Shown one piece after another: positions 8,460 through 63,700 of a DNA stretch of 64,000 nt. A program made the translations under genes and the position numbers. A model generated the notes under the pieces. That model was not told the DNA's origin and ran no database searches. It saw nothing but the letters and a program-made list of their open reading frames with translations. The stretch covers positions 18,245 to 82,244 of the forward strand of contig JAPJBO010000977.1 of NCBI GenBank assembly GCA_030068145.1. The letters are read 5' to 3'. Each line of letters starts with the position of its first letter. Position 1 is the stretch's first letter. This DNA is from Diplonema papillatum (lineage: Eukaryota; Euglenozoa; Diplonemea; Diplonemida; Diplonemidae).

Positions 8460-8520
8460 AAATCAACTGCCTTCGGGTAGGCTAGTCTGACACTAGTTGT
8501 CGTCGGGAAAAAAAAAAAAA
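8460..8520 (+). repeat. Two-hairpin, A-tailed short repeat (copy 2)
   Basis: This copy matches 5784-5850 around GGCTAGTCTGACACTAG plus TTGTC and ends in a long A run. It ends about 40 bp before the kelch start codon at 8562, so it may form part of the 5' leader or proximal promoter. That role is inference from position only. Confidence 0.5.
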
Positions 8521-8561
8521 ATGCCAGGTTCCCTGGGTCGTGCTCAAAGAAAAATCAAGAA

Positions 8562-9584
8562 ATGACCGATCCGATCATGCTCGGCACGTGGGAAGTCAAG
8601 CAAGTCGTTCTGTCGTCGAACCACGCCGGAAGCGAGGACTGGGTGGAGCTGGCCGCCCATCGCGGACACAGCGCAGCCGCTGGCGAGGCGGTCGAAGGGA
8701 GGATTGGTGTCATCGCGGGACCAGACAGAGCGTACTGCGTTGACTTACGGTCCATGCGCAAGGTTGCCCGCGGCGTTCAAGTCTACCCCGCGGAAGAAAT
8801 GCACCCCTCGACTTCCATTACGGGCCCGTGTGCAGCGATAGCCGCCGGGTTGCTGGTCGTTGGCGAACACGAAGCAGTCGTTTTGCCCTGGAAACCAGAA
8901 GCCGAGGCAGCAGCCCCATCCCCTACGCCTGCTCCCCTTCACGGCCACTCCATCGTAGCGCACGCAGGAGATGCCTACGTGTTTGACGGGGCTTCCGCCT
9001 CGTTGTGGAAAGTGGTGTGCTCCGAAGCGGAGGCGGGCGTTTCTTTCGAGAAGGTAAACGCGTCCGGCGACGCGCCGAGCCAGCGGCGGAATCAGGCCAT
9101 GGCCAGCGTGGCCGGGTGCCTGTTCGTGCATGGCGGCGCGGGGACTGATGCTGAGCTGTATGCCTTCAACCTCGCCACCCAGTCGTGGCACTGTTTGAAG
9201 ACGGGCGGTGCCGCTGACGTGCAGCCACCAGGCCTGGAAGGACACTCGCTGACGGTAGTTGGAAGGCGCCTGGTGCTGTTTGGCGGGTTAGTTGGAGGCG
9301 ACCCGTGGAATGTGAACACCGAGCTGTACGTAGCAACCTTAGAAGACGGAGGCGCCGTGGACTGGTCTGCGGGACGTGGCCGCAATCCCAACGACGAGTC
9401 GAAACCGTCTCCTCGTGGGTACCACGCCGCCACAGCGGTGGTGACGCCTTCCGGGCTCGCACTCGCAGTGTTCGGTGGCGTCAATCAATCAAACGAGGCC
9501 ATCGTCCACTCCCCGATCTACCTGTTGCGCTTCAAAGACGCCCTCGCTGCAGAGACCGCCGATGGCTGGAAGCTCAACGATGCG
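8562..9584 (+). CDS. Kelch-repeat protein (first exon or 5' part)
   Basis: The frame opens with ATG at 8562. It encodes beta-propeller blades of kelch type, with hydrophobic stretches ending in double glycine or an equivalent: DAYVFDGASAS, CLFVHGGAGTD, RLVLFGGLVGG and LAVFGGVNQS, each followed by a loop and an aromatic (SLWKV, SWHCL). Blade spacing is about 50-60 residues. Such proteins usually act as protein-binding scaffolds in the cytoplasm. After codon 341 (KLNDA) a good 5' splice site (GTATTG at 9585) occurs. The open frame past it to 9773 turns into low-similarity sequence and runs into a repeat, so I end the exon at 9584. The propeller looks incomplete, and no downstream exon is recognised. 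Confidence 0.7.
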
Positions 9585-9770
9585 GTATTGTTTTTTCTCG
9601 TTCGGTCAGGGCAGCAGAAAATGAGGGCAACAGGTCGGCGAGAAGGAGGCCAGCCCCACTGCGGTTCTCCCGACGAGAGCTGGCAACTGGCAGCGACCGC
9701 CACACATTTTCTAAACCCGTCGGACCCAAGAGCTAATGCAAGTGAAACGGCGAATACGAAATCATTTTCG

Positions 9771-9844
9771 TAGTGGGGCGACCGGGTACTCCTCGGAGAG
9801 ATGGTCCCTGCACTCTAACTCGTCTCTCTCTCTCTCTCTCTCTC
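9771..9844 (+). mobile_element. Short 3' end of the (CT)n-tailed retroposon (copy D)
   Basis: Positions 9771-9844 are nearly identical to the last 70 bp of the element inserted at 58106-58683, including the CGGAGAGATGGTCCCTGCAC core and the CT tail. Only the 3' terminus is present, as expected for a strongly 5'-truncated retroposon copy. It lies just downstream of the kelch exon, probably in an intron. Confidence 0.7.
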
Positions 9845-32880: not shown

Positions 32881-33017
32881 TTTGAGCCCTGGACTTAAAT
32901 ACACACAAACGCAAACCCAAACAGGAGAAACCAAAAAATAGTTGCCATCCACCAGAACGGCGTAAATCGTCGACCGCACACACAAAGAAAGAGAAGCACG
33001 TGTCACGCATTTGACAG

Positions 33018-36000: not shown

Positions 36001-39000
36001 GGCCGACGACTGACTGCGCGTGCGGGAAGCGCGCCGACGAGACGGCGATCGGCGGGCGGTGTAACTGCCCGCAGGACACCTTTTTCCAGGACCCGGCGGA
36101 CTTCGTCCAGGTCGGGAGCCACATGTTCTTCCTCGCAACCGCCGACTGGGAAGGCGTTCCGCCCGACGGATCCGCGCCGTGCGACAGCGATTCGACGGCG
36201 AAGCCGTTCCAAGGCTCGCGCGAGATCTTCTACACGAAGGGCCTGCCGCAGACGCGGCAGGCCCGGGCGGCCGCCGTGCGCTCCGACGTGCGGCTCGGGT
36301 CGTCAGCGTACCCCGTCCTCTCCGCCGAGCGTACCGAGGCCGAAATCCGGGAATCCGTGCTCGGCATGCAGGTGTTCACCCGCGCGAAGGAGCTGGTGAA
36401 GGCGCGGAACCCCGCCTGCGGGTTGCCAACCGCCTTCGACCCCTGCCCGGGCGACCCGCAGCACTACCCCGAGATGCTGGTGTTCGCCGCCGCCCCCGGC
36501 GGCGGCGATCCGGTTGCCGTCGAGCTGGGCGCGTCGCTGCAGCCGACGGTGCGCTCGGAGCTGCTCCCGCGGGTGCTCGCGCTGCCGCTCTCCGCGGCCG
36601 GCGTGCCGGCCGCCGGAGTCGCCCCGGTGCACGCGGCGCCGAACGTGCAGTTCCCGTCGTACCTAACACCCATCCCCGCGTCGCCGGAGGCGACGCGGAT
36701 CTTCTTCCTGGGCCAGGCGCGCCGCGCGTTCCTCCCGGCGAACTACTCGCCCCTCGGCGCGTCCCGCGGGTACGGTGCCGCCGTCAGCGGGCACCAGTAC
36801 GTCGTTCCCACCCGGCTCTCCGTCTTCGTCTCCGACGGCACGGCCGCCGACGCCCGCGAGCTGGTGGCAGCCAGCGGCGTGAACGTGAAAAGCTGCGAGC
36901 ACCAGCAGGGACACCCGGGCTTCGTGCACTTCAAGGACGCCGTTTACTTCGTCTTCGACGACGGAGACGGCACCGGGCCCCAGTTGTACCGGCACGACCT
37001 CGCGGCGCCGGCTTCCGCGGCGGCGAAGATCGAATTGGGGGTCTTGCGGGCGGTGAACGCGACGCACGACGCGGTTGTCGCGCTGAAGCCGTGGCTCCCG
37101 CCGCTGAACAAGGGGTACTTGAAGCTGCAGGTCGTGCCCGGCGGCGAGTTCTTGGTGCTCGGCCTCGGCTCGCCGGCGCGCGGGTGGGAAGACGAGGACG
37201 GGAACCCGTCGGGGAACGGGTGCCTGCCGGCGAAAACGTGCGGGTTGAAGCCGCACAGCTTCCGCAAGGCCTTCCCTTGCTTGAACGCCACGAGGGGGCG
37301 GGTCGAGCTCTGGCGGTGGGACGGGAACGCGAGCTTTTCCGAAGAAGGCGCGCACCTCACCCGCATCGCGCACCCCCCGGCTTCGCCGAATTTTGCGTCC
37401 GGCGCGACGGACCCGAAGTGGCTGCACGCGACGAAGGACGGGCTGTTCTGGGTCGCGCACGAAACCGGGATGACGCACATGGGCGCGTTCCTGAATCGGT
37501 CCGTCGACGGCGTCGTGTACCCGGCGGACCAGTTCGTCGACAGGGAGAGGCAGACGGTGTACTTCGCGCCGTTTTCGACGCTTTCGGAGGGCGCGGCGAC
37601 GACGCTCGAAGCGCGCGGCGTGTGGTCAACAGGGGTCCCCGCGGAGCCGTTCCAGTGGACGAACTGGGGCGGGCACGTCTACTTCTGGAGCCACGACCCG
37701 GCCGAGCTGGCGGAGGCGTACGACGCGTTCGACAGTGCGGCGGGCTCCTGCTTCCCGCCGGGGCGGCTGCAGGACGTGGTGTACCGGGATGACATCGGGC
37801 GGCTGCAGTTTTCGAAGGTCATGTCGGGGGTCAACGTCCCGGCGTACGCCGGCTGCGGCCGGAACTTGTACCGGATGCGCAGCGACGGCACCGCGGCGCC
37901 GGAGCTCGTCCGCGCGGGCACGCCGAACGACGGCGTCGGCGTCCCGCGCACGCAGTGCTGCGGCACCACCTTCGCGTCGGGGATCCCGTCGGCGAACTGG
38001 CCCAACGCCTCCGGCTTCACCATGTCGGACGTCGGCGGGCCGCAGGCCGGGCGCAGCTGCTCGTACGGCAGCGATGGGTGCGAGCCGGACCCGTCGCTCG
38101 GGTACCCCGCCGGCGAGCCCGTCTTCCCGAAGGGCTGTACCCCCTGCTTCTTGCCGCGGGGGTCGTTCCCCGTGCTCAGCGGAGACACCGTTCGCGACTT
38201 TTTGTACCCTTCGTTCACGACGCCGAGCGACACGCTGTACTCGTTGAACACTTCGTGGTCGTACCCGCACACCGGGTGGTGGCACACCGGATTCAACAGC
38301 ATTTGGACGGACGAGCGCGTGAGCCGGGCGGCTGGGGTTGCCGTGAACTCGTCGGGGTATACCGAGGTGGGGAAGTACCACATCCGAGGGCACGAGCTGT
38401 ACCGCCCGGGCGGGTTCGCGTGGCGCGAGCACTGGCCGTCGGTGATGGCCGTGTGGGAGGACGCGGCGCCGGCGGCCCGCGACGACTGCGGTGACTGCGC
38501 CGCAGGGTACTACGGCGCGGGCTGCGCGCGGGCGTGCCCGCTGTCCCCGCGGGCCCTGCTGTGCCCAGCGGAGGACGAGGCCGGCTGCCGGCCGCCGGCG
38601 TGCAGCTGGAACAACGGGAGCCAGGTCTGCGAGTCGGTCACGTGCGACGGGTACCCCTGCGCCGACGGATACTACGGCAACGGCACCTGCCTGTGCCCTG
38701 GGATGGGCTTCGCGTGCCAGGAGGTCGAGCAAGTCACCACGCTCTCGTTTCCCGTCTCAGCAGATGAACCGATCATCGTCGGACCGGAGTGCCCTGCGGG
38801 CTCGCTGAGCAACACGTGCGGCCACCCGACGACCGCTACCTGCAGCATGCTCTTCGACTGCGGTGCCGCCGGTGACGAGCCGTGCTGCGGGCGCGGCCCG
38901 GAGCCGATGCAGGTGTCCGGCAGCCGCTGGGTGCTGCTCTCGTTCTTCAACGTCGAGGTGCCCGCCGGCTCCGTCGCGTCCGCGACCCTGAAGCTAGTCG

Positions 39001-42000
39001 AGCAGGACGGCGGGGGCTGCGATACCCGCGCGGACATCGCCGTCGACGGCTGGGTCGGCGGCGCCGCGCCGGACGCGATCGCAGCGGCGATGGAGTCGAC
39101 CCTCAGCTTCCAAGCCGTCGTTGCCGCGCTCGGCTCGGCCCGGCGGTTCGCTTCTTTCGCGTCGGGCCGCACACAGCAGGCAGCGAGGTACGTGTCCCTC
39201 GACTCGGGTCTCTTCCCCGCCGGCGGCACCGTCAACGTGACGCTGGTCCTCCGCGCGGATCCTAGCACGCAAGACGGCGCGTGCGTGCCGTTCTACGCCG
39301 CGCGGGAGTCCCGAAGCGACTGGGCGGCCTTCTGCGCGGCCGGCGGCGGCCGCTGCGTCAATGGCGCGGCGCCCGGCGGCCGGAACGAGCGGGTGCCGGC
39401 GCGGCCCGCCGACGCGTCGTGGCTCGTCCTCGACGTGCTGCCGCCCGCTTCCCCGGGCAGCCGGCGTGCCCCGTCCGCCCTCAGCCGCGTGTTCGCGCTC
39501 TTCGGCATGACGACCGGCGACGACCACCCGCCTGCGGCGGCACCGCCGCCAAGGACAGGCAGGGCCGGCGTCGTACAGTCGGCCGGCTTGTCCCTCCGCA
39601 GGGCAACTGCGCTGTCCGCGGCGCCGCCCGCGTTCGGCGCGTTTTCACCGGTGGCGACGCTGCCGCTCGTGTCGGCCCCCGGCTGCACGCTGTCCGGCAG
39701 GGCGGTGAGCGAAACGTGCACCATTTTGACTCCGGGAACCAGTGGGTACGCGGTGGTGCGCCTGACCGCGATCACGTCGTCCAAGTACACGGCGCGCGTC
39801 TCGTACACCCCCCGGGGCACGTACAGCGCGGCGCGGCCCGGTTCCTGCGCCGACGACGAGGCTTCCGGGCACTGGGGCGGCGAGCTCTGCCTCGACTGCA
39901 AGTTCCGGTACAGCGGGGAGAACTGCACAGACTACGTTCCCGCCGTCTGCGACGCGGCCAGCTGCCCGGCGGGGCGGGGGGTGTGCCTGCCGGACTCGGG
40001 CGCGGGGAACACGCGGGTGATGTGCGCGTGCGAGGCCGGGCTGGGCGGCGTCGCGTGCGACATACCTTGCGACGCGAAGACGTGCGCGCACGGCAGCTGC
40101 CGGGAGGACGGCTCGTGCGCCTGCTTCGGAGACGACTCGAACGGCCACTGGGCAGGCGCCGCCTGCGACGCCTGCGTCCGCGGCTTCTTCGGCTCCCGCT
40201 GCGCGCTGCAGTGCTCGTGCAGGTACGGCCTGTGCGACACAACGTCCCCCACCGGGTCGTGTCTCCCGGGAAGCTGTACAAGCCAGTTCGCCGGCGAGAG
40301 GTGTGACGAGTGCGCGGAAGGGTTCTACGGCTCACTGTGCGAAACTGAATGCTCTCCAGCTACTTGTCATCAAGGGTTGTGCGACGCTGGAGGCAACTGC
40401 AAATGCGACGAGGATTCTGGTTTCTACGCGGATCTGAACGGGACGTGTACGGCGGCCTGCTACGACGACACTTGCTCTGGTAACGGGTTGTGCCTTGCGA
40501 GTGACATCGGGCTCGACCCAGCAGCACCTTGCACGTGCTATCTTTCCCCATACGCTGGGTTCTGGGACGTCGCGACCAACTGCACGACTTGCAAGCCTGG
40601 GTTCTGGGGTGTGAACTGCACAGACCCGTGCGACTGCAACTCAGCCGGGTTATGCGACCTCGTGACGGGGGTCTGCGCCTGCTACGACGACGACGTGAAC
40701 GGGCGCTTCCACGGGGAGCGCTGCGAGCGGTGCCAGGAAGGGTATGCCGGGGACTGCACGTCGAGGGCCACGACCGTGTCGGGTCCGAGGATCGGGAAGG
40801 CGTACTCCATCGACGGCGCGGAGGTTGTGCCGAAGGCGGAGGCCGCGCGGGTGGCCGGTTCTCTGTTTTACACGACGGCCGACGACGTCGAAGCGCGGGC
40901 CGCCGGCACGTTCGCGGAGAAGAGCCTGGCCGACGAGGAAGACCGCATCATCGCGGGAACGACGGAGGAGGTCATCTTCGCGTCGTCAGGCAGGCGGAAG
41001 GGAGCCAGCCGGTCGCTCATCGTCGACGTTTGGGCGAAGACACTGGGACCCTCCATCGACTTCAGAGGGAAGGCCGCACGGCAGTTCGCAGTGCACACGC
41101 GGAGCCCTACCAACGCGTTGTTCGGGCGGAGTGTTCGCGGCATGTTCCAAGACGGCCCGTACTTCTTCTTCGTCGTGGCCGACGACTCCCGCTCGTACAT
41201 TGGCAGGACGTGGGCGGTGTACAGCGAAGCGTGCCCGCTGTGCCTGCACCCTGAAAACGTCGAGGTAGGCCTGCAGCACCTGGACGCCGACAAGGCGCCG
41301 TACGACTTCGCCGCGTCAAAGACGTGCAGCGTCGGCTGCCCGGTCGGACAGCAAGTACTGGTGTCCCGCCGCGACGCGCCGGGGGCCCCGATCCCGGAGC
41401 AGCCAGGGCTGATCGTCGCGATCAACGCGACCAGCCGGCGGCCGTGGGTGGTGCTGGAGTCCGGCGCGCCGTGCGATGCTGCCGCCGCCGAGTGCCTGCC
41501 GGGACACCCGCGGGCGCACCTCCTGCAGAATTCGGGCATCCGGCCGCTGGTCGCGGTTGCTTGGCTTCGGCCCACGGACGGCGCGGCCCGCGCCGCCGCC
41601 GCCGGGGCCGCCTCGCAAAGCTACGAGATCGTCGCGTGGAAGTTCGAGCCGGCGGGGCGTGCGGTGCACGCCGTCGTCCTCGAATCAGACGTTCTCGCCA
41701 ACGGGACCCGAATCCCCGCCGTCTACCACCTGCAGCGCGTGCCCACTGCCGGGTTCGAGGCGTTTTCGACACCGTCCCCAACGCCATCCCTGCGTCTCAC
41801 CCACTTCGACCCGACCGTCTCGAACGCTCGCGTCGACACTCTGCACGTGTACGCGGAGCCGGGGACGGGGGAACCGGTGGCGTTGGTGTTCGGGCTGGAC
41901 ACCCGCGGGCTGCCGGTGCTGCAGAAGATCAACCTGCCGAGCGCGGGGCGCCCGGGGTACAAGGTTGTGTTCTCGGTGACGCCCGGCGTCTGCTCGGCGG

Positions 42001-43784
42001 TGGTGTGCCGCCGGCAGGAGGCCGTCGTGCCCCTGCGCGGTCTCCGCGCCGCGCGGAACGAGACGGCCGTCGCCGGCGACGAACACGCGGTCCTCCTCTT
42101 CGCGCGGTCCGAAGCGGCGCCGGGGCTCACCCGGTACGCCGTGCAGCGGCTGGACCTCGCGAACCTGAAGGAGCAGAGCGTCGCGCCGCTGTTCGGCCAC
42201 GGGTACTGCTCCCAGTTCGACTCGAACGCCACGGCGTGCGAGTCGGCCCGGTGCGTGTGGGGGGCTTCGGAAGCGCGGTGTGGGCGGCCGGTAGCGGGCG
42301 TAGTCGGTGATTCCGGGCTGATGCAGGGGATTGGGTTCGCGTCGTTTGACCCGGATTTCGGGTTCGTGTACTTCTCTGTCGGTGCGGAGAACGCGGCGTC
42401 GCCTTCGCTTGTCTTCAAGGTAGACGCGTTGTCGCTGCGGGCCGTCCTGCAGCGGCGGATGGATTACGGGCACGTTGCCACCGAGGTGGAGGCTCTCGTC
42501 GCCGGGCACTTCGACCGCCCGCGGCGGGCGCTGCTCGCTCTGACGCACTTTTCGCGGACGTCGATCGCGGTGATCCCCGCGTACGACACGGTGAGCATCT
42601 CGCCCGACGTCGCGGACGCGCCGATCGCCGGCACGCTGGTGACCGTCAAAGGCGTCGGGTTCACCTCGCTGCGCGGCGCGTTCCACCCGGCCTGCTCGAT
42701 GGGCCCGTCGGTGTCGTCCGGGGCGTTCGAACTCATCGACGGCGAGCTCGTAGTCGTGTGCACAGCAGCAGTCCCCGAGACGTACACGGCGTGCAACTGG
42801 CTCGCCCTGGAAGTCGCCACGAACCGAGCGGACCCCCGCTGGACGGAAACCGGGACCCTCGTGAAGCGCATCAACACCGCGCTGATCCTCTCCCTCAGCA
42901 CCGAGCGGCGGGACAACGGCTCGTGGGTCGCCATACCGGACCCGGAGGCGGCGGTGGCGATGCCGGGGCCGCTGGAGACGCCGTGGGGCACCGGCGCGGG
43001 CGGCGACTTCCAGCTCATCAAGACCGTGCAGGCGGTAACGACCGGGCCGTTCGACCGGAGCGTCGTGGTCGCGGTGCACGGCGCCGGCTTCTTCGAGTCG
43101 CCGAACGTGCGGTGCAGCTTCGGCGCGAACGTGACGGCACCGGCCACCGTCGTCTCGGCCATCCGCCTGCTCTGCCTGCAACCCCGGCTGGCGGAGCCCA
43201 TGCGGACGACCGTCGAAGTGACGCTGGACGGGCAGGTCTTTTCGCGGAACCGCAGGCCGTACTACGCGGTCGGCGACGCCGTCGCGATCGAGGCGTTCTA
43301 CACGTGCAGTCCGTTCGCCGACGCGTGCACGAGCGGCCGGCTCGGGACGGTGGGCAGCGGGCGGGTGGTGACGCTGGACCCGGTGGTGGTCATCTTCAAG
43401 GACTCCGCGGGGACGTTCGTCGGGTCGGTGTGGACGAAGGGCACCGTCGGGAACGTCTCCCTGCAGGCGTCGGCCGGCGGCCTGCCGCTAGCCGGCGGCT
43501 CGCTGTCGAAGCCGCCGGTCGACGGGCGCGTCGTCTTCGAAGATCTCCGCCTCGAACTGCCGCTGGCGGGGACTTACACGCTCACCTTGAGTTACTCCGA
43601 CGCAGAGCTGCCGGTGCCGCTTGTGGCGCAGCTGCCGCTGACCGTCTCCGGGGGCGCGCCGCATCGCATCGTCATGCTCTCCGGGCCTCCTGCGTATTCG
43701 AACAACCGCGCCAAGCTCACGGTGCAGCCGAGCATCCGCATCCTCGACGTGGCGGGCAACGCCGTCACTGACGGGGAGCTCACG
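33018..43784 (+). CDS. Giant EGF/IPT surface protein, exon A
   Basis: This exon of 3,589 codons starts after a TTTGACAG acceptor at 33010-33017 and ends at a GTGTGT donor (43785). After a hydrophobic Ala-rich stretch come an EGF-like unit (about residues 42-85) and an EGF pair near 528-600 (CSCADGYEGPACDEPCCSGHG). Residues about 940-1810 have ELWxxDGT/hyalin-like blades (SVFVSDGTAADARELV, NLYRMRSDGTAAPELV). More EGF modules lie at about 1820-1895, and a laminin-EGF run of about seven at 2277-2582. Two IPT/TIG immunoglobulin-like domains lie near 3190-3255 and 3337-3417 (VVVAVHGAGFFESPNVRCSF). All of this should be extracellular. Signal peptide and start codon are not in view. Exons B to E complete the protein; adhesion or recognition is the likely role. 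High GC over long open frames supports coding. Confidence 0.8.
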
Positions 43785-44086
43785 GTGTGTGGCGCTTCGC
43801 GTTTTTTGTTATTTGTATAAGCACTTGCTCAGCAGGAAATACCAGTTGCGAAATCTCAAATAGTAAATGTGCCGTAGCCCAGTGGCGGGCGTGAGCGTTC
43901 AACGAAAAAGACCGCCTCGGTCGAAATGAGCGCAAGGCACATGAAATGTTGGTATCACAAACTACCAGGCCACCGCAAACAGATTTCTTACCGTTTCTAA
44001 CGGCACCGACACCAACGACTCCCCATGCATGAAGAGGCAGTGCTCTGCCTTAACATTAAACTAAGATTTTCCCCCCTTACTTGCAG
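43785..44086 (+). other. Giant gene intron A/B (phase 0)
   Basis: The intron runs from GTGTGT at 43785 to TTGCAG at 44081-44086. It contains a copy of the hairpin repeat at 44022-44079 whose CCCCCC terminus abuts the acceptor, so the repeat supplies the pyrimidine tract. Confidence 0.75.
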
Positions 44087-52560: not shown

Positions 52561-53384
52561 AACAGGGGATCTCGGTGGAAATACCTTGGTTCTCATAGGT
52601 ATTCTGGACCGGCCTTGTTTCTTTTGGAATGCAACATTCAACCTCTTAGAGTTGGTGCTGCTCACACACAGAAACCCTACGGTAGCGTCACCTCAAGCAA
52701 GCAAGCATTTCAGTGACGGACGTAGGAGGGGACTGAGCTGAGTCGGCGGGCTGCCTTTTGGAATTGCGTTGTTGCTGAGGTTGCGCAGGTGTTAGATTCT
52801 ACGTTTGCAACTACCAAGACGACGGGCTTGACTCAGATCCGTAGCCCGAGCCTAAATACGAGCCTAATATGTCAAAGCAGGACTCAAATCTCGCACCACC
52901 TACAGTGAAATGCCGTGGTACGCAACGATCCCGCTGCGAGGCGAAGAAGAAGTTGTTACCGACGATCAAGAACTGCTTGGTATGGTTCAACGGCACAGGA
53001 GAGAACTTTTTTTACGCCAGACAAAGAACCGAAGGGATCCCAAGTGCTGTAACTACCGAACACGTGTTGCGAGGTAGATCATGTGGGTCCATCCCTACAC
53101 GACAAGACACGCAAACACAACCGGGAAAATAGTCCTGGGTGGATAAACAACGTTGTGTGAGCGATGAACAAATCTGATTGTGGTTCAACCGTTGTATTCC
53201 CTATCCCTATATTTCCTCCCTTCTAGCGTTCTACAGCACATTTCAACTGGTGGATAGTGCGTTGCTCAGGGTAGTCGAAGGCCTGACAATCACACTAATG
53301 CAACAAATTTACACAACTGGTGGTTGGCTGCTGCGTGATGCAAAACTGATAGCCATTTTGCAAAAGGTCGAAGCTCCCCCCCAC
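52561..53384. other. Intergenic spacer between two arrays
   Basis: I see no gene or repeat in it. It separates the 20-bp and 41-bp minisatellites. Confidence 0.4.
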
Positions 53385-53915
53385 CCTCAAAACGTAGTGG
53401 AAACACTTTACCCTTGATGGGGACACCTCAAAACGTAGTGGAAACACCTTACCATTGATGGGGACACCTCAAAACGTGGTGGAAACACTTTACCCTTGAT
53501 GGGGACACCTCAAAACGTGGTGGAAACACCTTACCATTGATGGGGACACCTCAAAATGCGGTGGAAACACTTTACCCTTGATGGGGACACCTCAAAACGT
53601 AGTGGAAACACTTTACCCTTGATGAGAACACCTCAAAATGCGGTGGAAACACTTTACCCTTGATGGGGACACCTCAAAACGTGGTGGAAACACTTTACCA
53701 TTGATGGGGACACCTCAAAATGCGGTGGAAACAATTTACCCTTGATGGGGACACCTCAAAACGTAGTGGAAACACCTTACCATTGATGGGGACACCTCAA
53801 AACGTGGTGGAAACACTTTACCATTGATGGGGACACCTCAAAATGCGGTGGAAACAATTTACCCTTGATGGGGACACCTCAAAACGTAGTGGAAACACCT
53901 TACCATTGATGGGGA
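53385..53915. repeat. 41-bp minisatellite, block 1
   Basis: Twelve full units and one partial unit of a 41-bp repeat start CCTCAAAACG. Units differ at fixed positions (ACGTAG, ACGTGG or ATGCGG; CTTTACC, CCTTACC or AATTTACC). Units 8-13 alternate as an ordered three-unit set, giving a 123-bp higher-order repeat. Confidence 0.9.
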
Positions 53916-54204
53916 ATGATCCTCCAGCTGCGTTTCCTTTCCGTGCCCCAGTTCTCGCTTCTGCGGCGCTCGTTTTGCTGCCGCTTCTACGCGCAGCTCT
54001 CTTCCGCCTTGCTCAGGGATCAAAACGGGAATGAGAGAAACACGGGCTACTTACCAAACAAACGAAGGGGTGACGAAAAAGAAACGAGGACGGGGGTGTG
54101 TGTGGGGCACTTACATTTCTTGTTCACCTGGATGAGGTTTCTGGTTATACTAGCTGGGAGCACAGTGCACTTCGCTGGGATAATTCCCCCGATAAATCGT
54201 CAGA
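53916..54204. other. Non-repeat insert inside the minisatellite
   Basis: About 289 bp of unique sequence splits the 41-bp array after GATGGGGA; the array resumes with ACACCTC at about 54204. No coding or element hallmarks are visible, so it may be an insertion or a captured fragment. Confidence 0.6.
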
Positions 54205-54206
54205 CA

Positions 54207-54698
54207 CCTCAAGACGTGGTAGAAACACTTTACCCTTGATGGGGACACCTCAAAACGTGGTGGAAACACCTTACCATTGATGGGGACACCTCAAAACGTG
54301 GTGGAAACACTTTACCATTGATGGGGACACCTCAAAATGCGGTGGAAACACTTTACCCTTGATGGGGACACCTCAAAATGCGGTGGAAACACTTTACCCT
54401 TGATGGGGACACCTCAAAACGTAGTGGAAACACCTTACCATTGATGGAGACACCTCAAAACGTGGTGGAAACACTTTACCATTGATGGGGACACCTCAAA
54501 ATGCGGTGGAAACAATTTAACAATGATGGGGATACCTCAAAATGCGGTGGAAACACTTTACCATTGATGGGGACACCTCAAAATGCGGTGGAAACACTTT
54601 ACCCATGATGGGGACACCTCAAAACGTGGTGGAAACACTTTACCGTTGATGGGGACACCTCAAAATGTGGTGAAAACACTTTACCATTAATGGGGACA
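54207..54698. repeat. 41-bp minisatellite, block 2
   Basis: Twelve units of the same 41-bp repeat follow, the last ones more diverged (ACAATGATGG, TTAATGG). Units 6-8 show the same three-type order as in block 1. The array stops about 315 bp before the Penelope-like ORF. Confidence 0.9.
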
Positions 54699-55013
54699 CC
54701 TTCTCATTGATGGGGGGCTCTCCGCCGGCTACTCTACAAGACATATAAGCCCATACAAGCCCTGTTAGGTTGTTAGTACCGTACCGTTTGGGCGGGGGGC
54801 TGCGCCCCCCGAACCCCCCCATCTTTTAAAGAAGATTTTTGAGGATTTTTGATCAAACTTTCGGAGAACGATGCTGTAGTTTTGCCTGCGGAAAAGAGCT
54901 TGGAAGGGAATCGAACCTGGGTGTACGTACAGGCAGGGGGGAAATAATTGCCCGCGCCTTCAAAATTATAAAAGGTGGTAGCCGTACCCCCCCCCCCCCC
55001 CGTGGACCACACG
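54699..55013 (+). promoter_or_regulatory. 5' leader of the Penelope-like element
   Basis: Between the minisatellite and the first ATG lies a perfect 8-bp GC hairpin with a 3-nt loop at 54793-54811, then a C-rich run, an A/T-rich stretch and a C14-15 tract before the start. The exact element boundary is not determinable from one copy. Calling it a promoter or leader is inference from position. Confidence 0.35.
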
Positions 55014-58000
55014 ATGGCCCCTTGCCGTGTGGCCCTAAAAAACGCCGCAGGACCGCTTTTGGACCTGTCAGCCCGACACGTTGATAGACCCAAAGTAAAA
55101 AATCCCACACCCGTCTCTAAATCGCCATTGAAAGTGCCTAGGAAGCATAACCATTCGAGGCGGAGTGCTGCGTCGTCTACCACCACCGAGTCCGAAAACA
55201 TGAAAGTTAACTACTTTGATGATGAACTCGACGGAACAGACGCTAAGGTAGTCGTCGGATATCCGATTCGGACAGATGACGAATGCCTTATTTTCCGACA
55301 GCGCCACTCCCAGGAAGGACCTGAACTTGTTGGTCGTTTCCCAGCGACACGGAGAGAGGGAAAGGAAGAGAAACGCTGCGACAAAGGTCACCCCAGACCC
55401 CAAGCGGCCCCCAAAACAAAGAAGCCCTGCGAGAAAGGTCTTTCCAGACCCCAAGCAGCCCCAGAACAGAGGAACCGTGGAACGACTAGCCACCCGGTTC
55501 ACAACGATCGACAAAAGGAGCGCGAACAAAAGAGGCCGCAAAAAGAAAAACCCAGAGCACAAGCACGAAAACGCCGCCAAGAAAAATCGGAAGAACGACC
55601 ACGTGACTCTGAGGCAAAAAAACAAAACGAAAAAAACCAAAAAAACCAAAAAAACAATAAAAGTGCACGCGCCAACAGAAAAGAACGGCGAAAACAAAAA
55701 ACAAACCGGCCCAAATCTGACACTCGTTTCCTCGCCGCTTTTGTCCACACGCGCCGCCACCCTGACGACGACGACGACGATCACGGAAGCCGAAGAAAAA
55801 GCGCGATCGAAATCTTCTGGAAGCGATACGGCACAAAAGTGTCGAATGGGCGGAACAAATGCGGAACCGACCGAAGCGACGTCGCCGACAGCACGACGGG
55901 AGTGATCTACGTACTTCTGAACGAAGGGGGCACCGTCCTCTACGTGGGTCAGACGTCGAAGACGGCCGAGGTGCGAAACAGCAAGCACTGGGAAAATCGG
56001 AACTCAAAGGGCAACCGTGTATCGCAACAATTACGAAAGCGAGGCCGGAAGCTCTACGCGTGTCCGATACAGAATGTTCCGGAACGGCTGTACGTACAGC
56101 CCGCTGACTTCGCGCGCGTGGCTCTCCCAATCGAAGATTTTTGGATCAAATGGCTAAACCCGCCATTGAACATGACGAATCGGCGACAGGGAGAGAGGGT
56201 CAACAACAAGGCTGCAAAGAAGAAGAGGAGGCAACGTCCACCGCAACGCCTCCGCAAACGACGCACCGACGGCAGCGTCTGGCACCGCATGGAAAACGAC
56301 GAACTCCACATTGACACCTCCCCGGGCTTCTGTTCTGGGTTGAGGAAACAGTTGGACCACCTGTTGACACTCCCACAGGACCGACTGGGAACCTACGACA
56401 TGTCAACATGGCATCCCAATCGCGCCCTCCGCCTACGCACGTGGCTGAGAACCTTCGTTCAAGGAAAGGACGTCACAGACAAAGTACGAATCCTTGAACG
56501 ACTCCTCAGTGCGCGCATCCGCAACAGAACCGAGAAACCGGCGGCCCCCCCACGACGGTATTTCAAGCTGACGCATCATCACCCGGCACAAGACCGGACA
56601 GCAATAGCCGGCGTCCTGTCACGCGCACGGGTTCGCGAAACGTGCCCCAACCCGGCCGTCCTCAAAAACCTCATGGTGAGCAACCGCCTGAAGCCACCTT
56701 TGGTAACCCTCGTCAGCAACGTCACCGAAGTAAGTTACGAAGCGAATCAACCGACTAGCTCAGGTTCGGTTTGTCCATGCATGCAGCATATGACACCACA
56801 CCGCCCGGATCTTGGTGGACACGCTTTAGGACTTGCAACGGATCTGAAGACTGACGAAGCCCTCCTTTCACTTTTTCGAAAAGGACGAAAATACCGGGTC
56901 GCGAGTAGTCCGATGACTATGTACGACTCGATAAGACACGACGTCGAAGAATTCGTGAACTCGAATTTCCCGAAGGCGAGCGAGGACGAGAAGACCAGAT
57001 TTTCAACGACTCTGGTCGAAGAGTTCGACGCCGTCCTTGGAACTCTCAACGCGCACACCGACGAACCTCAACTCCGAGACGCCTTACGCACCCTGAAGAA
57101 GCTCCAGGAGCACCTCGTGTTTCTCCCTGTAGATAAGACGTCCCATGACTTCGGGTTTATCTGCAAGGAAAAATACAAGGAGCTCTTACGGGACGAATTA
57201 CAACAGAGCTCAACGTACCAGGAAGTTGGCGAGTCGATTGATGACGTGCTCGAACGACACCGTGACTTCAACAAGTCACACAAGTTCGTACACGCCGACA
57301 ACCTACCGTACCTTTACGGCATCCCGAAGCTCCACAAACCCGAACCACGGATGCGGTACATTGCCGGCGTGTCGGAGAAAGGAAACGTTGAGAAGAAAGA
57401 CGAACAGAAGGACCGAGACGAAAAAGGCCGCGACAAGAAACGAATGAAGACACGTGCATCCACAACCCCTGCACACCAAGAAGCCTCCGGTTTGCTGAAG
57501 CTGGTGCTAGCAACGCTCCGAAGCAAGGACGAAGCGGCGTTTTCGCAAACGGGGATACGTCGTTTCTTCGTCGTGGAGTCGGTCGATGACGTAGCAGTAC
57601 ACATAAAGACGAACTACGCTCGACTGCGCAAAAAAGCGCCACGAACCTTCGACTTCAAAGAGATGTACACGAAGATTCCGCAGAAGCAGATTGTTGACTA
57701 TGTTATGTCTGCGGTTGCAGAGGCTTTCGAGTACATGAAGTCCGAAAAAGGAGCGAACGTAGAAGCCCAGCGCGCCAAACACCGTTTCGAATTTGGGAAA
57801 CCAGACGAATCGAACACGACCTCCTACAATGTCGAAGAGATTCGAGCACTGGTCAGCTTCATTGTTGGTAACACCTTCGTCACCAACGGTGGAACATGCT
57901 ACCAGCAGGTATCCGGAATCCCCATGGGCGGCAATGCAAGCCCAGACCTCGCCAACTTATACTGCTACTGGTGCGAAAAGCAGTACATCGACGGCCTGGT

Positions 58001-58105
58001 CGCGAAAGGATTGCAAGAAGAGGCCAGGAATCACGCCGACAGCGTCAGATTCATTGACGACTTCCTGACCTGGGGTGTTCGACCACCGCCGGAAGATATC
58101 TACGG
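55014..58105 (+). CDS. Penelope-like element ORF, part 1: GIY-YIG and RT
   Basis: Starting at ATG 55014, residues 1-285 are very rich in Lys, Arg, Glu and Gln, as expected for nucleic-acid binding. A complete GIY-YIG nuclease follows: GVIYVL at 296-301, LYVGQT at about 309-314, an arginine in EVRNSKHW, and the closing E..WIKWLNPPLN. Then come a Pro/Arg linker and the RT: FLPVDKTSHDFGF, LYGIPKLHKPEPRMRYIAG, TFDFKEMYTKIP (Asp about 880), QQVSGIPMGGNASPDLANLY and RFIDDFL (Asp about 1015-1016). These are Penelope-type motifs, and all catalytic aspartates are present. The protein should nick target DNA and reverse-transcribe from the nick. The frame breaks at residue about 1031 (DIYG) where the retroposon lies. 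An earlier or later start (ATG at 55200) is possible. Confidence 0.85.
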
Positions 58106-58683
58106 AAGGGGCTGCAAATTGGGTACCTTATGCGAGCTATCAACGACCTGTGCTGCGCCGACTCAGGAGTCGCCTCCTTCCCTGGGAAGTGGCGGCAGGG
58201 GGTCTGTTCCCTCCGCTGTTTTGGTGCGCCGGCTATGCCGGGTTGTACCCACCGCCCACGCTTTGCGGCTGGACGGAAGACCGAGTGGATGTTGGGCAAG
58301 CTGGAAACAATTTGCGCCCGTAACAGCTGGAACGATGCCGTGCCTGAATATCCGCACGACGTACCCTATGTTCAGTGGGAGTTGAGATTCTCTGTCAAGA
58401 TGCTAGCCGCCGCCATAGGGCGGGCTATTGCCAAAAGGAGGAGAGCCCGCGAAACAACGTGCCAACACACGCCTGCCAGGCGGTCTCGTCCGCCAGTCAG
58501 AACGCCCCCGGCTGCGCCACCATCGGTGCAACAATCATCTTTGACAGGGCCACGGCTCGCTCCGCGCCCACGGCGCAACGACTTGCGCCCGCCGTAGTAG
58601 TACGGGATAGTAGTGGGGCGACCGGATACTCCTCGGAGAGATGGTCCCTGCACTCTAACTCGTCTCTCTCTCTCTCTCTACGG
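58106..58683 (+). mobile_element. (CT)n-tailed retroposon inserted in the RT (copy B)
   Basis: The 578-bp insertion is flanked by TCTACGG (58099-58105 and 58677-58683). Removing it rejoins the RT frame exactly between the FIDD motif and the thumb. It encodes PYVQWELRFSVKMLAAAIGR and a basic tail, homologous to copies A and C, then the conserved 70-bp 3' end and a (CT)n tail. Copies differ in their 5' ends but share the 3' end, which fits target-primed reverse transcription of a LINE- or SINE-like element. Confidence 0.75.
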
Positions 58684-60103
58684 CATGGAGTATGGTGAAA
58701 CGTCGAAAGGTGTCGACGACGTAGTCTTTTTGGGGATGCGGATCCGGATGGAGAGGAATGACAAGACGGACTTCATTCGGATGTCTGTCCTGGACAAGGG
58801 TGAGGAATTCCCCTGGAATCCGATAAAGTACACCCACGTCGAATCCACGGTACCACGAAACACCGGAACCTCGATCTTCAAAGGCGCACTGATCCGAGCA
58901 GCGCGCATCTGCAACAACATGCCAGATCTGAAGGTCGAGGTCATGAAGGTGTACTACAGACTTCGGAACCGAGGATTCTCTGGACGGGAACTCCGGCGCA
59001 CGTTCGACACGTTCGTGGCACAAACGTACGGAAAGTACGAATTAGATGCGCGAGTGCTGTCACGGTTTCACCACTTCGTCGGAAAGGCCTATGACGAAGG
59101 TCGCCCGACCAACGAGGAAAAACCGTACATCAGCATCCGCACGCCGCAACCGCCCGACGGCTCACCGAAACATCCACCCGGGAGAACCTCGCCGCAGTCT
59201 ACGTCGCCGCACAAATCCGAACCCACCAGCACTACGCACCCTGCGACGAAACCAACAAACCCACCTGGACGCAACGGCATAACGAACATTCGCAACTCAT
59301 GTTTCTTCGCCGCCAGCGTGCAGTTCCTGGCGCGAAGGACGTCCTTCCGACTACAACTCGCAAACCTAACGCACCTGGACACCAACCAGCAGATGGTGCA
59401 GAGGCTGTTCACGGATTTCGACGCAGGCCAAAACATCCACGGTACAATGGCCACACTCCGGAGCCTCGTGTTCAACACGACGGCAGACGACTCCGCGCAT
59501 CGGGACGTGCACGAACTGCTGACGTGGATACGCTCCTGCGTGACGGGCGACGACGACGACCAAGCTACGGTGACATACTCCCGTTTGACAACGTGCACAA
59601 TATGCAAAGAGTCTTCACGAGCATCGCCGGCGTCAGAACCGTTCCTGATGCTTGAACTCAAAAACAGGGAGAAGCCCTACACCGAGTCAGTTGAGGATCT
59701 GATAAAGAAAGTGCAAAACAAGAGAGCAACCAAAGTGGACGACTTCCCCTGTAGCACCTGTAACAAAAGGACCGTTGGATCTACGAAGGAATATTACACA
59801 TTTCCAAAGCAAATGGATGTAACACTGCAACGAGCACAGCTATCGAAAAAAACACGCGAAGAAATAAAAATACCAGCCCGCACCCCGATCCGACAAACCA
59901 TACTGATCGGTGAAGACTCCTACACGGTAAAAGGCTTCATTATCCACACCGGAAGAGCAACGGCAGGTCATTACTATACCGTGTTAAAGGAAGACGATGA
60001 ATGGGTGTGCTACGACGACCAGCAAGTATCCGTACTCTCATGGGAGGAATGTGCCAGGAGGTTCACAACCAATGGCTACGTCATCTCTCTCGAGAAAGCG
60101 TAA
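58684..60103 (+). CDS. Penelope-like element ORF, part 2: RT thumb and USP deubiquitinase
   Basis: The first 140 codons are the Penelope RT C-terminal region (VVFLGMRIRMERND, ESTVPRNTGTSIF, YRLRNRGFSGRELRRTF). After a Pro/Thr-rich linker, a compact USP (peptidase C19) domain of about 270 residues follows. The Cys box is NGITNIRNSCFFAASVQFL, with the nucleophile codon at 59300-59302. The His box is AGHYYTVLKEDDEWVCYDD, with His at 59969-59971 and the Asp after it. Between them two Cys pairs, CTIC and CSTC, form the zinc-ribbon finger typical of USPs. Known USPs cleave ubiquitin from proteins; here the enzyme could shield the RT or its targets from proteasomal decay, or process the polyprotein. 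It ends at TAA 60101-60103. All active-site residues appear intact. Confidence 0.8.
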
Positions 60104-60305
60104 ACACTTTCACCTGGTGGAAGTAGTGCCCCGTGGCGGTTGGTTACGAGCCACAACCCAATTTGTAAACCCCCTTTTTTTAAAGAAAAACGGACGAAGG
60201 GAGGAGGAAGTGAAGCCATAGCACATGGTTTCAAACCACGGAGTCCTGGACTCCTTACCCACACTTCTTCAGTAAGGCAGACGCACAAAAGGACGGTGCC
60301 ACGGC

Positions 60306-60705
60306 ATGATTCGGCAGCCGCCCGCGGCAACGAAAAAGGAGACGGCGACGACCGGACGGGCGACCAAAAGGCCGCCACCAACGCCAGGAACCAGCGAACG
60401 ACCAGCGCTGAAGAAAAGGGTCGAAGGAAGGCCCGATCGCCGGCCGCAAGCGGAAGAAGACGAAGGCGACCACCCCCGACTCAGGGGTGCATCGAAGGAA
60501 GAAGAAGGTACCGAGGGCAAGCAGCTCTCAGAAACGACCGGGGACCACGGGCACACCAACGCCCTCGAAAGTGAAAAACGGACACACGTGCCCGCCCTCG
60601 TACTCGCCGACTCAGTCTCTGGAATCGCAAGAAAGCCAAACCCCGCTAGCTCCACAAATGCTCGACCTTGACGACGCAATGGCAGGTGACGACGTCATCC
60701 GATAA
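60306..60705 (+). CDS. Possible small charged ORF downstream of the retroelement
   Basis: ATG at 60306 opens 121 codons rich in Lys, Arg, Pro and Glu. Another frame overlapping from 60487 ends with the more protein-like SLESQESQTPLAPQMLDLDD and a stop at 60705, so a frameshift may lie near 60500. Composition resembles the basic N-terminus of the retroelement ORF. It may be a second element-encoded product or just 3' untranslated sequence. No family is recognised. Confidence 0.25.
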
Positions 60706-60960
60706 CCTGACTTTCAAGGCAGTGCATGTTAATCCACGTGGTTCATGTACTTCAAAGAACTCAATGCTAAACGAACATCGACGTGGGCGGCATAGAGAAA
60801 GAAGAACTACTCTACGGCACCAGAAAGTCCAAAAATACCATGGTAAAGAAAATTAAAATGAAAATTAAAAGTAAAAGGAGAAAAAAGAAATTGTCGACAA
60901 CGAAAGAAAAAACAGAAAAAACAGAAAACGAAAAAAAGAAGAAAAAAAGACTCTGCATTC

Positions 60961-61040
60961 CGCGAAGAAGACTTGATGCTAGCATCAAACACTTAGAGGC
61001 AAGTAGCGCCTGAACACGAAACTAAGATTTTCCCCCCGTG
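60961..61040 (+). repeat. Hairpin repeat (copy next to the DDE transposon)
   Basis: This copy has GAAGACTTGATGCTAGCATC with its full palindrome at 60973-60988, an AGGC...GCCT hairpin, and ACTAAGATTTTCCCCCCGTG. In the copy at 51609-51745 the CCCCCGTG is followed directly by GGCTTA sequence; here that continuation appears only at about 62211, after the tandem arrays. Confidence 0.65.
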
Positions 61041-61062
61041 AATTACTTTTTACCCCCGACAC

Positions 61063-61523
61063 GTACTTTCCACCCCCCGAAAAACGGGGGGTAAAGAGTA
61101 TAAATCCGGGGGTATAGAGTATAAATCGGGGGGTATAAATCGATGTCGGGGGGTGGAAATTGTTGTCGGGGGGTGGAAAGTACTTTTCGGGGGGTGGAAA
61201 GTACTTTTCGGGGGGTGGAAAGTACTTTTCGGGGGGTGGAAATTTTTGTCGGGGGGTGGAAAGTATTTTTCGGGGGGTGGAAAGTACTTGTCGGGGGGTG
61301 GAAATCTTTTTGTCGGGGGGCGGAAAGTATTTATCGGGGGGGTGGAAAGTACTTTCGGGGGGTGGAAAGTACTTTTCGGGGGGTGGAAATTTTTGGTCGG
61401 GGGGTGGAAAGTACTTTTCGGGGGGTGGAAAGTACTTTCGGGGGGTGGAAAGTACTTTCGGGGGGTGGAAAGTACTTTCGGGATTTTCGGGGTGGAAAGT
61501 ACTTTCCGGGGGGTGGATTGTTT
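61063..61523. repeat. G-rich tandem array (GGGGGGTGGAAAGTACTTTTC unit)
   Basis: About eighteen copies of a 20-22-bp unit containing a run of six or seven G. The unit varies between GGAAAGTACTTTTC and GGAAATTTTTGTC in its second half. The plus strand could form many G-quadruplexes. Long frames across it are artefacts. Confidence 0.9.
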
Positions 61524-61564
61524 TCTGGAGCGCGGCGGGACACTGTACTTGCACACACGAGAAT

Positions 61565-62135
61565 CGACCCGCAAACCCGCGAACCCGCATATCCGTTCCC
61601 GCAAACCCGCATACCCGAACCTGCAAACCCGCAAACCCAAACCCGCATACCCAAACCCGCATACCCGCGTACCCAAACCCGCAAACCCGAACCCGCATAC
61701 CCGTTCTCGCAAACCCGCATACCCGTTCCCGCAAACCCGCAAACCCAAACCCGCATACCCAAACCCGCAAACCCGCGTACCCAAACCCGCAAACCCGCAT
61801 ACCCGAACCCGTATACCCGTTCTCGCAAACCCGCATACCCGTTCCCGCAAACCCGCATACCCGAACCTGCAAACCCGCAAACCCAAACCCGCATACCCGC
61901 GTACCCAAACCCGCAAACCCGCATACCCGAACCCGCATACCCGTTCCCGCAAACCCGCATACCCGTTCCCGCAAACCCGCATACCCGTTCCCGCATACCC
62001 GAACCTGCAAACCCGCAAACCCAAACCCGCATACCCGCGTACCTAAACCCGCAACCCGCATACCCGAACCCGCATACCCGCAAACCCGCAAACCCAAGGA
62101 ATCGCAAACCCGCAAACCCCGCATACCCGCAAGCC
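61565..62135. repeat. Telomere-like degenerate CCCG array
   Basis: About 570 bp of 7- and 8-bp units: ACCCGCAA, ACCCGCAT, ACCCGAAC and ACCCAAAC. The minus strand reads GGGTTTGC/GGGTATGC, resembling a diverged telomeric repeat. Larger blocks (CGTTCCCGCAAACCCGCATA and neighbours) recur, showing higher-order duplication. Confidence 0.85.
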
Positions 62136-62419
62136 CGCAGACCTGCAGATTGTGGCTGGAACTGTTTTTGGACACTCAGGTTCCGCGCTGATGATGGTCC
62201 GCCTTATGTGCCCGTGGCTTAGAGGACCGAAACACGGCGCAGACGGGACCAGTGCGGTGTTGAGCACATACCCATTCCAAGCACGTTCTTGCAATCCCCC
62301 CACCCCCCAGTGCTGATGCTAAGGCCCCTAAACTCGGCATCGTTGTCAGCCGGACGGCAAGTGGGGCCCTTTTGAGGCTGCTTTTGGGGTGTTTCCCAGA
62401 GGAGTAAACGTTGCTTCCG

Positions 62420-63700
62420 TTTGTTTGGGCTTTCTTTTGTGAAAGTCAGGGTGCAAAGACGAGCCTGCCCACAGAGCACTTTTGAAGGCAGAATCTATGT
62501 CTGCATGTGATTGCCAAGTATGAGTCCGCGAGCCACTTGCACACCTCGTCACGGGTTGGTGCAGGAAGCTTCGCACTGTTTTCTGCAACAAGCTGTTGCG
62601 AGGACCAGTCTATCCACTTGGAACGAAGAAGTCGTCGCACCTTCAGATTGCAGGCGCTCTGGTCGCCAACATTCAAGTGACCTGACGTGTTCGGAGGTAC
62701 AATGAACACCAGCCAGCCCCGCGATCTCGCCTCCTTCACGACAGGAATGCTGTAGTGCGACTTGTACCCATCCACCATAACGAGAAGCCCATACTTCCCT
62801 GAGGGGAAGCTGGGTAATGTACAGCTGTACTCGAGCATTACTTCGTAGTCGCACACCTTCTTTTTGGCACGTGAAGTGCACGTTGATGTCGTGCTTGTGC
62901 CTGTTCTGGTAAAACGTGGGGCGGCCCCGTCCTTCCGTGATAGTTTTTGGCCCCTGCCAAACAACAAGTGGGTCCATCCTCACCTTTTCCGACACAGAGA
63001 TGTTTCTTTGGGTGTGCACCCCCCAGCTCAGGATAGCTGTCATGTTCCGCTTCTCGTTTCCAGCGGTGCATGCTCTGACCCGGGGCTCCACACTCTTTAC
63101 TGAGCACACCGTGGACTTCGCCAACGGGAGACAAATCTTCCAGAGAGAGAGAGAGACGAGTTAGAGTGCAGGGACCATCTCTCCGGGGAGTTTCCGGTCT
63201 CCTCACTTCTCTTCGCACTGCTACGGCGGGCGTAAGTCTTGCGGCTCTGCTACAGTGAGTGGCGGCACCGGAGTTGGTGCTGCAGCGGGCGCTCTGGCCG
63301 GCGGGCGAGCTCGTCTCGCGGGGGATCGCCGCCTTGTAACGCTGCGGGCCCTCTTCTTCCTCGCGACTGCGCGGCCTACGGCGGCGGCTAACACCTTGAT
63401 GGGAAACTTCAGCTTCCATTGATGGATCGCTTGGCGGGCAAGCGAAATAACCGAGTCGTTCCTGAGAGCTGGAGAGTGGCATATGAGCCAATCCTCCTTG
63501 TTGTTATCTTGTGTGTTCGCCGGAAACGCGACCACCAAGTTTCTAGATTCTTTGGGGGTCCAGGTGATGCCCTTCGTTCCCCTCATATTCGTGCTGCGAC
63601 GAGAGGCTCTTCTCCGTGAGACGGGTGTGTCAACTTCAATGAACTCAATAGGACGGCCAGGATCAAATACCCCTTGATTCCCCTTTCTGCAGAGCTTTTG
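62420..63700 (-). pseudogene. Decayed DDE-type (pogo/Tigger-like) transposase
   Basis: On the minus strand, codons near 63070-62900 read NEKRNMTAILSWG and DPLVVWQGPKTITEG. After a frame change near 62875 comes GLLVMVDGYKSHYS, then VFIVPPNTSGHLNVGDQSAC and a KVRRLLRSKW helix. This is the DDE_1 pattern: VDG.xSH with the second Asp, PPNTS..L...D with the third. The upstream end (LARQAIHQWK) is separated by the retroposon at 63143-63418, which removed 5' context of the first Asp. With one frameshift and one insertion it cannot make a full protein. Its flank (62211-62300) matches 51681-51745. Confidence 0.6.
63143..63418 (-). mobile_element. (CT)n-tailed retroposon inserted in the DDE transposase (copy C)
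   Basis: This 276-bp copy reads on the minus strand from the WKLKFPIKVLAAAVGRAV coding segment to the conserved 3' end and a (CT)n tail at 63143-63156. It is flanked by CTTCCA at 63137-63142 and 63413-63418. Removing it rejoins the transposase frame. Its 5' end is shorter than copy B, consistent with 5' truncation. Confidence 0.7.

Follow-up and report, generated by a model that had tools for sequence, protein, structure and literature searches.

In a 64,000-nucleotide stretch of DNA from the marine flagellate Diplonema papillatum (Euglenozoa), referred to here as the window, we analysed a retroelement at positions 54972-60103 of the forward strand (on which all genes and protein domains given below also lie), whose product an initial annotation had described as a fusion of a GIY-YIG nuclease, a Penelope-type reverse transcriptase (RT) and a ubiquitin-specific protease (USP). 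Sequence comparisons confirmed this predicted fusion as real, multi-copy and old, since it is borne out by intact relatives at 99, 71 and 45% identity and by a more distant protein, P0020, that holds all three domains in one chain. The element is, judging from its sequence, a copy of a multi-copy Penelope-like retrotransposon with an N-terminal nuclease, broken by a nested insertion, and its single protein ends in a predicted deubiquitinase. Beyond the initial annotation, we observed a wider pattern, in that related RTs carry other protease families behind the RT thumb, which suggests that stripping of ubiquitin may matter for the spread of these elements. We propose, with a probability of about 0.5, that the replication protein of one clade of Penelope-like elements (PLEs) has incorporated a C-terminal deubiquitinase, which has been exchanged between families (USP, OTU, Josephin and perhaps Ulp1), and that the RT protein would itself remove ubiquitin, as a selected step of retrotransposition.

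The window is D. papillatum DNA, and the near-identical proteins matched by both parts of the element's coding sequence carry DIPPA_ locus tags. The first part, open reading frame 1 (ORF1, 54972-58385), encodes a basic N-terminus, the GIY-YIG domain, a CxC connector, and the fingers and palm of the RT up to motif C, where the insertion interrupts it; its in-frame ATGs include those at 55014 and 55200, and P0009, a gene model with 93% identity across 801 aligned positions, starts at the ATG equivalent to the latter. The second part, ORF2 (58601-60103), lies in another frame and comprises the end of the insertion followed by the RT thumb, a proline-rich linker and the USP, element coding being picked up again at about 58679. 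The initial annotation had described a single frame apart from a later insertion, and this proved correct: a 578-bp insertion at 58106-58683, with 6-bp CTACGG repeats at both flanks and a (CT)n end, has shifted the frame and added stops, and it is absent from P0001, which is uninterrupted at that point, as well as from P0002 and P0005. Pieces similar to this insertion occur elsewhere in the window at about 851-1137, 9770-9839 and 63142-63422, and it therefore looks like a dispersed repeat that has landed in this copy.

The N-terminal GIY-YIG domain (55899-56162; ORF1 residues 310-397) was recovered above the Pfam cut-off (PF01541, E 1.2e-5, 26 bits, cut-off 22.6). Re-translation and alignment with P0008, P0009, P0014 and P0015 revealed the motif VIY...YVG, without a CxxC before YVG, followed by the Glu of PIEDFW and the Asn of PPLN, both of which we take to be catalytic. 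In the interval between nuclease and RT lies the CxC connector, translated as CPC...GHA (56772-56825); under a strict regular expression the pattern CxC...GH[AV] was present in 13 of the 36 retrieved proteins, several of the others starting downstream of that point. The RT palm (57645-58061) contains motif A (TFDF..MYTKIP; 57645-57680, TFDFKEMYTKIP), motif B (GIPMGGNASP; 57915-57965, GIPMGGNASPDLANLYC) and motif C (RFIDD; 58047-58061), so that the RT motifs with their Asp residues stood up to re-translation. The Pfam profile RVT_1 gave a weak match at residues 888-1032 of ORF1 (E 0.03, 14.5 bits, cut-off 29.6) and was listed for 10 of the 17 relatives scanned whole, with E values from 0.094 to 1.1e-6; because it was below cut-off wherever it was listed, the RT assignment rests on motifs A, B and C together with the relatives.

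The C-terminal USP, a peptidase C19 domain at 59276-60082, is supported by Pfam, a PDB match, a six-row USP alignment and re-translation. Its match to PF00443 is strong (ORF2 residues 226-494, E 4.6e-17, 62.9 bits, cut-off 23.9) and covers profile positions 2-251 of 254, as the initial annotation had anticipated. A PDB sequence search with the window USP returned 58 sequences at E <= 0.01, every one of which (58/58) is named as a ubiquitin or ubiquitin-like (Ubl) carboxyl-terminal hydrolase, the best being human USP15 (E 2.7e-10). The annotated Cys box, two CxxC pairs and His box are all present on re-translation, with the catalytic Cys at 59300-59302, the zinc-ribbon CxxC pairs at 59594-59605 and 59750-59761, and the His at 59969-59971; the Asp is present too, at 60017-60019. 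When six full USPs were aligned with MAFFT, 15 of 234 ungapped columns were invariant, among them those of the catalytic triad (Cys, His and Asp), of two zinc Cys and, in the QDAHE box, of the Asp and the Glu. The faster change of the USP that we describe below has thus left the catalytic triad intact.

The same arrangement recurs in several relatives. The reading is unbroken from the RT through the whole of the USP in P0001 (870 amino acids, 99% identical to ORF2, a cluster of 18 member sequences), in P0002 (867 amino acids, 71%, 7 members, annotated as ubiquitin carboxyl-terminal hydrolase 26) and in P0005 (45%); member counts here and below may include one protein from more than one source. 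These three gene models start within the RT, and the nuclease part is displayed by the models P0008 (79%) and P0009 (94%). P0020 represents a distant D. papillatum family (1499 amino acids, 10 members, annotated as ubiquitin carboxyl-terminal hydrolase 16), in which a single protein contains GIY-YIG (residues 86-129), CxC, RT and USP (E 1.3e-20), followed by a zinc finger at its end. Identity to P0001 over the RT-USP part is 29-36% for P0020, P0021 and P0022, with P0020 at 29%. P0021 is a EukProt sequence whose tag, Rhum_TRINITY, marks it as an apparent transcript, presumably from the transcriptome of Rhynchopus humris, and P0022 comes from an ENA contig, outside Diplonema. The USP is above the Pfam cut-off in the window, P0001, P0002, P0005, P0020, P0021 and P0022; the GIY-YIG domain is above it in P0008, P0009 and P0015, at it in P0020 (22.6) and below it in P0014 (20.9). 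P0014 belongs to the P0020 family, and its model stops just after the USP Cys box, leaving a USP match below cut-off. Altogether the order thumb, linker, USP was found in six distinct proteins, one of them tagged other than Diplonema. An absence of further copies would have spoken against the fusion; protein searches instead yielded other copies with the USP in frame and the catalytic Cys and His kept. Six scans of IMG/VR and a search of the GTDB genomes confirmed no relative, records of the window's own genome possibly being left out there.

To which kind of retroelement the copy belongs can be judged from its features, the trees described below holding no named reference PLE. PLEs with an N-terminal nuclease, the Naiad and Chlamys groups, were reportedly described by Craig et al. 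in 2021, with a CxC motif between nuclease and RT. The Chlamys nuclease is not known to carry the CCHH motif, and PLEs of the N-terminal-nuclease kind are not known to have the hammerhead ribozyme; their known hosts are the green lineage, slime moulds, animals and Ectocarpus. In the window, GIY-YIG nuclease and RT share one ORF with the nuclease N-terminal (residues 310-397 versus 888-1032). A CxxC before Y[VI]G is missing from the window, P0009 and P0020 and present in P0018, P0019 and P0035, and no Rfam hammerhead match at E <= 1 was obtained in 53000-62500. Because of the GIY-YIG before the RT, the CxC, the lack of CxxC in the nuclease and the lack of an Rfam hammerhead, the element fits the N-terminal-nuclease PLEs, Chlamys rather than Naiad. 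It differs from both in its tail, which across the clade is USP, OTU, Josephin or perhaps Ulp1-like, in some cases with a zinc finger, and in its host, a diplonemid. A search of PDB with the A5 profile gave no match. GIY-YIG is reported to be common to no retroelement subclass other than PLEs (PMC12910113), canonical PLEs of one clade carry a C-terminal nuclease (PMC11167929), and Chlamys elements have been found in Ectocarpus, new to its supergroup (PMC12477816).

We then considered what stands behind the RT thumb in the other retrieved proteins. The final protein search (profile A3) gave 31 proteins, only the 8000 candidates sharing most words having been scored, and the retrieved set is biased, the search having begun from USP-bearing RTs. 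In P0033 an OTU domain follows the thumb, above the Pfam cut-off (E 1.8e-6) and with a PDB match to OTUD1 (E 8.4e-6). Its relative P0023 was unlisted for OTU in the whole-protein Pfam scan and gave E 0.0018 and 19.2 bits as a segment, below the cut-off of 23.3; the two share Cys and His boxes, and the P0023 tail is probably an OTU as well. P0025 carries a Josephin domain that scores 28.8 bits as a segment, above the cut-off of 26, and 24.4, below it, within the whole protein; against PDB this part gave no Josephin match and two unrelated weak ones. In P0024 a putative Ulp1 site was recognised by eye (GHWYTVHW / ESLDN / GAQTDSWSCGYWALN); neither Pfam, with whole protein and segment, nor PDB, with two unrelated weak matches, supports it, and we therefore treat it as a lead only. 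Beside the deubiquitinase families, no other Pfam domain above cut-off was found in the tails scanned. USP, OTU and Josephin are different cysteine protease families with a distantly related papain-like core, and for this reason we speak of families and not of unrelated folds. As a separate observation, the P0033 OTU (residues about 316-400) is also weakly similar to an RNA-directed RNA polymerase L chain (PDB 11nq, E 0.16).

Nine proteins (P0018, P0019, P0027, P0028, P0030, P0031, P0032, P0034 and P0035) are free of such an extension and all end 143-166 residues past the IDD motif, whereas P0001, P0020, P0023, P0024 and P0025 run on for 492-965 residues. Moreover, a zinc finger CxxC...RGLxxHxxxC at the C-terminal end is common to P0016 and P0020, which are of one RT family, P0020 with a USP, and to the OTU proteins P0023 and P0033; P0014 retains its last part, and the window family is without it. 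A terminal zinc finger shared across USP and OTU proteins looks like the mark of a protease that may have been exchanged between fixed neighbours. The USP of P0020 is closest to human USP12 and that of the window family to USP15, the two being mutually weak matches (25-26 bits); this difference would fit separate captures and would equally fit fast change.

RT trees were built from 21 of the 36 proteins, the chimeric, redundant or short ones (P0003, P0004, P0006-P0013, P0015-P0017, P0029 and P0036) being left out. The 12 extension-bearing rows formed one RT clade, with support 100/99 (two different RT slices), against the nine rows without extension, and the support was 100/100 after dropping three long outgroup rows. 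Within the clade, where long branches and two half-filled rows (P0022 and P0033) call for caution, the USP rows did not form one clade in the best tree, and a single USP clade was not rejected (AU, approximately unbiased, test p 0.24). The tree is equally compatible with a single gain and later replacements and with several gains.

Several observations weigh against our proposal. When P0026 is excluded and P0014, P0023 and P0024 are scored as USP, OTU and Ulp1-like, respectively, the minimum number of type changes for the five states none, USP, OTU, Josephin and Ulp1-like is four; this is the lowest possible number for five states, and therefore the tree does not show repeated swapping. The nine tree relatives without extension imply that spread does not in general depend on the activity. 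Conservation is incomplete: the oxyanion Asn is aligned in 5 of the 6 full USPs, P0021 being the exception, and two of the zinc Cys are kept in 5/6 each, P0020 and P0022 missing one apiece, single losses that may be shifts of the MAFFT alignment; the Josephin-like tail of P0026 has no catalytic Cys and has Arg in place of His. The gene model P0016 passes from thumb to zinc finger without a USP and P0008 retains only a USP scrap, which may reflect either false splices or copies lacking the USP. Finally, the USP evolves faster than the RT and, at large distance, like the linker. Between P0001 and P0002 identity is 80% in the palm, 88% in the thumb, 43% in the linker and 68% in the USP, and between P0001 and P0005 the corresponding values are 59, 76, 35 and 35%; this fits an arms race and also weak constraint.

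As to mechanism, the nuclease would nick the target, where the RT would copy the element RNA, a scheme already proposed for other PLEs. The C-terminal protease would strip ubiquitin in cis from its own RT-RNA complex, possibly also from repair proteins or chromatin at the nicked site, and the removal would keep the complex from degradation or eviction before insertion completes. Since different deubiquitinase families stand at one place, it would be the activity, removal of ubiquitin or a ubiquitin-like protein, that is selected and not one particular protein; since the protease is fused to the RT, a nearby substrate is favoured. The substrate and the place of action remain guesses, and we give cis action of the C-terminal deubiquitinase, as the best explanation of the whole, even odds.

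A possible, though clearly less probable, alternative is that the deubiquitinase acts mainly in trans, taking ubiquitin or a ubiquitin-like protein off host histones, silencing factors or repair proteins, so as to counter silencing or to steer repair at the nick. Both the faster change of the USP relative to the RT and the occurrence of different protease families in one position would be in keeping with a conflict in which the host also changes, and Bao et al. (2010, PMC2836005) proposed that the OTU or Ulp1 protease of Ginger1 activates downstream repair factors; the fusion to the RT, however, favours a substrate close by. It is unlikely that the domains are passengers, that is, functionless pieces of host genes acquired by chance. 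L1 and Penelope-like elements can transduce host DNA (PMC6431247), the linkers are variable, and P0026 has lost its catalytic residues; yet the triad is kept in all six full USPs, in proteins down to 29% identity over the RT-USP part (P0020), and three recognised deubiquitinase families occur in one RT clade whose scanned tails gave no other Pfam domain above cut-off.

Still less credible is processing of the element's own polyprotein by the protease, which the initial annotation had offered as one of three roles beside RT stabilisation and the countering of host silencing; in its favour, the C-terminal position behind a variable linker could be invoked. USPs cut after ubiquitin, but Pfam reported no ubiquitin-like domain for the window or for any of the 17 relatives scanned in full, and an identical novel cleavage specificity would have had to arise in each of several protease families. 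There is a precedent for a protease that does both jobs, the PRO/DUB of turnip yellow mosaic virus (TYMV; PMC5695851). An artefact of gene modelling or assembly, with an RT element placed upstream of a host USP gene, has practically no standing even though many Diplonema models of the family are chimeric (P0003, P0006, P0008 and P0010-P0013): for the window it is refuted by DNA in which a single frame of 500 codons spans the thumb, the linker and the USP, and a host gene or assembly accident is rejected by the recurrence of that order in proteins at 99, 71 and 45% identity.

Several of the chimeric models have a peculiarity of their own. The exits of P0003 and P0010-P0013 from the element all lie within about 30 bases of a single point in the USP (window about 59569-59605), for example after VTYS or YSRLTT and adjoining a GT, and the models then continue with sequence unrelated to it. 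The annotations of P0011-P0013 are UNC93-like, dynein intermediate chain 2 and STIP1-like, and P0004, marked partial, simply ends at that point. This shared exit point reflects either a spurious donor site introduced by the annotation or genuine splicing that joins element RNA to host genes.

The nearest known systems each share a part of this architecture. Ginger1 DNA transposons carry a C-terminal protease, OTU or Ulp1, one per family and in all but one of the families listed (PMC2836005); unlike the window element, they encode a DDE integrase-type transposase, have terminal inverted repeats and lack an RT. In the window no DDE integrase-type transposase was among the Pfam matches of ORF1 or ORF2, and RT motifs are found instead. 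Bao et al. (2010, PMC2836005) also list Mutator elements with Ulp1, Helitrons with OTU and a Trichomonas protein pairing peptidase C19 with transposase_11, and proposed that these proteases act in repair in the course of transposition or afterwards. The Trichomonas protein and the OTU Helitrons/Helentrons (PMC2836005, PMC6431247) resemble our element in fusing a mobile-element protein to a deubiquitinase, once of the C19 family, but they are DNA transposons and not retroelements. By analogy, the nearest tested parallel for the link between deubiquitinase and polymerase is TYMV, in which PRO/DUB, encoded together with the polymerase, removes ubiquitin from it and rescues it from degradation (PMC5695851); TYMV differs in being an RNA virus whose protease has an OTU-like fold and is also its polyprotein protease. 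The initial annotation knew of no Penelope-like element with a USP, and the literature we searched, with subscription papers, preprints and Repbase outside the search, likewise gave no earlier PLE with a deubiquitinase. The D. papillatum genome paper (PMC10161547) reports many retroelement gene models, including LINE, SLACS, R2/jockey and TATE types, and its main text has no word beginning with Penelope or ubiquitin.

The element is flanked by repeats, with a 41-bp tandem array to its left (53385-54701) and tandem arrays to its right (61081-62150), some G-rich and some of the ACCCGCAA type, which would fit an insertion into repeats. Pseudo-long terminal repeats were not found in this one broken copy; with a 14-base seed, 53500-61100 holds only 41-bp tandem arrays and no other direct repeat of at least 25 bases. 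Elsewhere the window encodes a Laminin_G_3/concanavalin-like lectin domain (3118-4941, E 1.8e-15), a Kelch-repeat protein (8481-9770, E 1.3e-21) and, in GC-rich DNA, a 3601-codon open frame with weak EGF-like matches (33015-43817).

For Diplonema, the finding explains genes annotated as ubiquitin carboxyl-terminal hydrolase 26 (P0002) and 16 (P0020) as retroelement proteins, and it may be the first record of Penelope-like elements in Euglenozoa, no separate search for earlier ones having been made. Deubiquitinases are known from DNA transposons and RNA viruses; here they are fused to an RT in a clade of retroelements, with different families at one place. Such a fusion brings the so far loose notion of ubiquitin control over transposition within reach of a test by a single point mutation.

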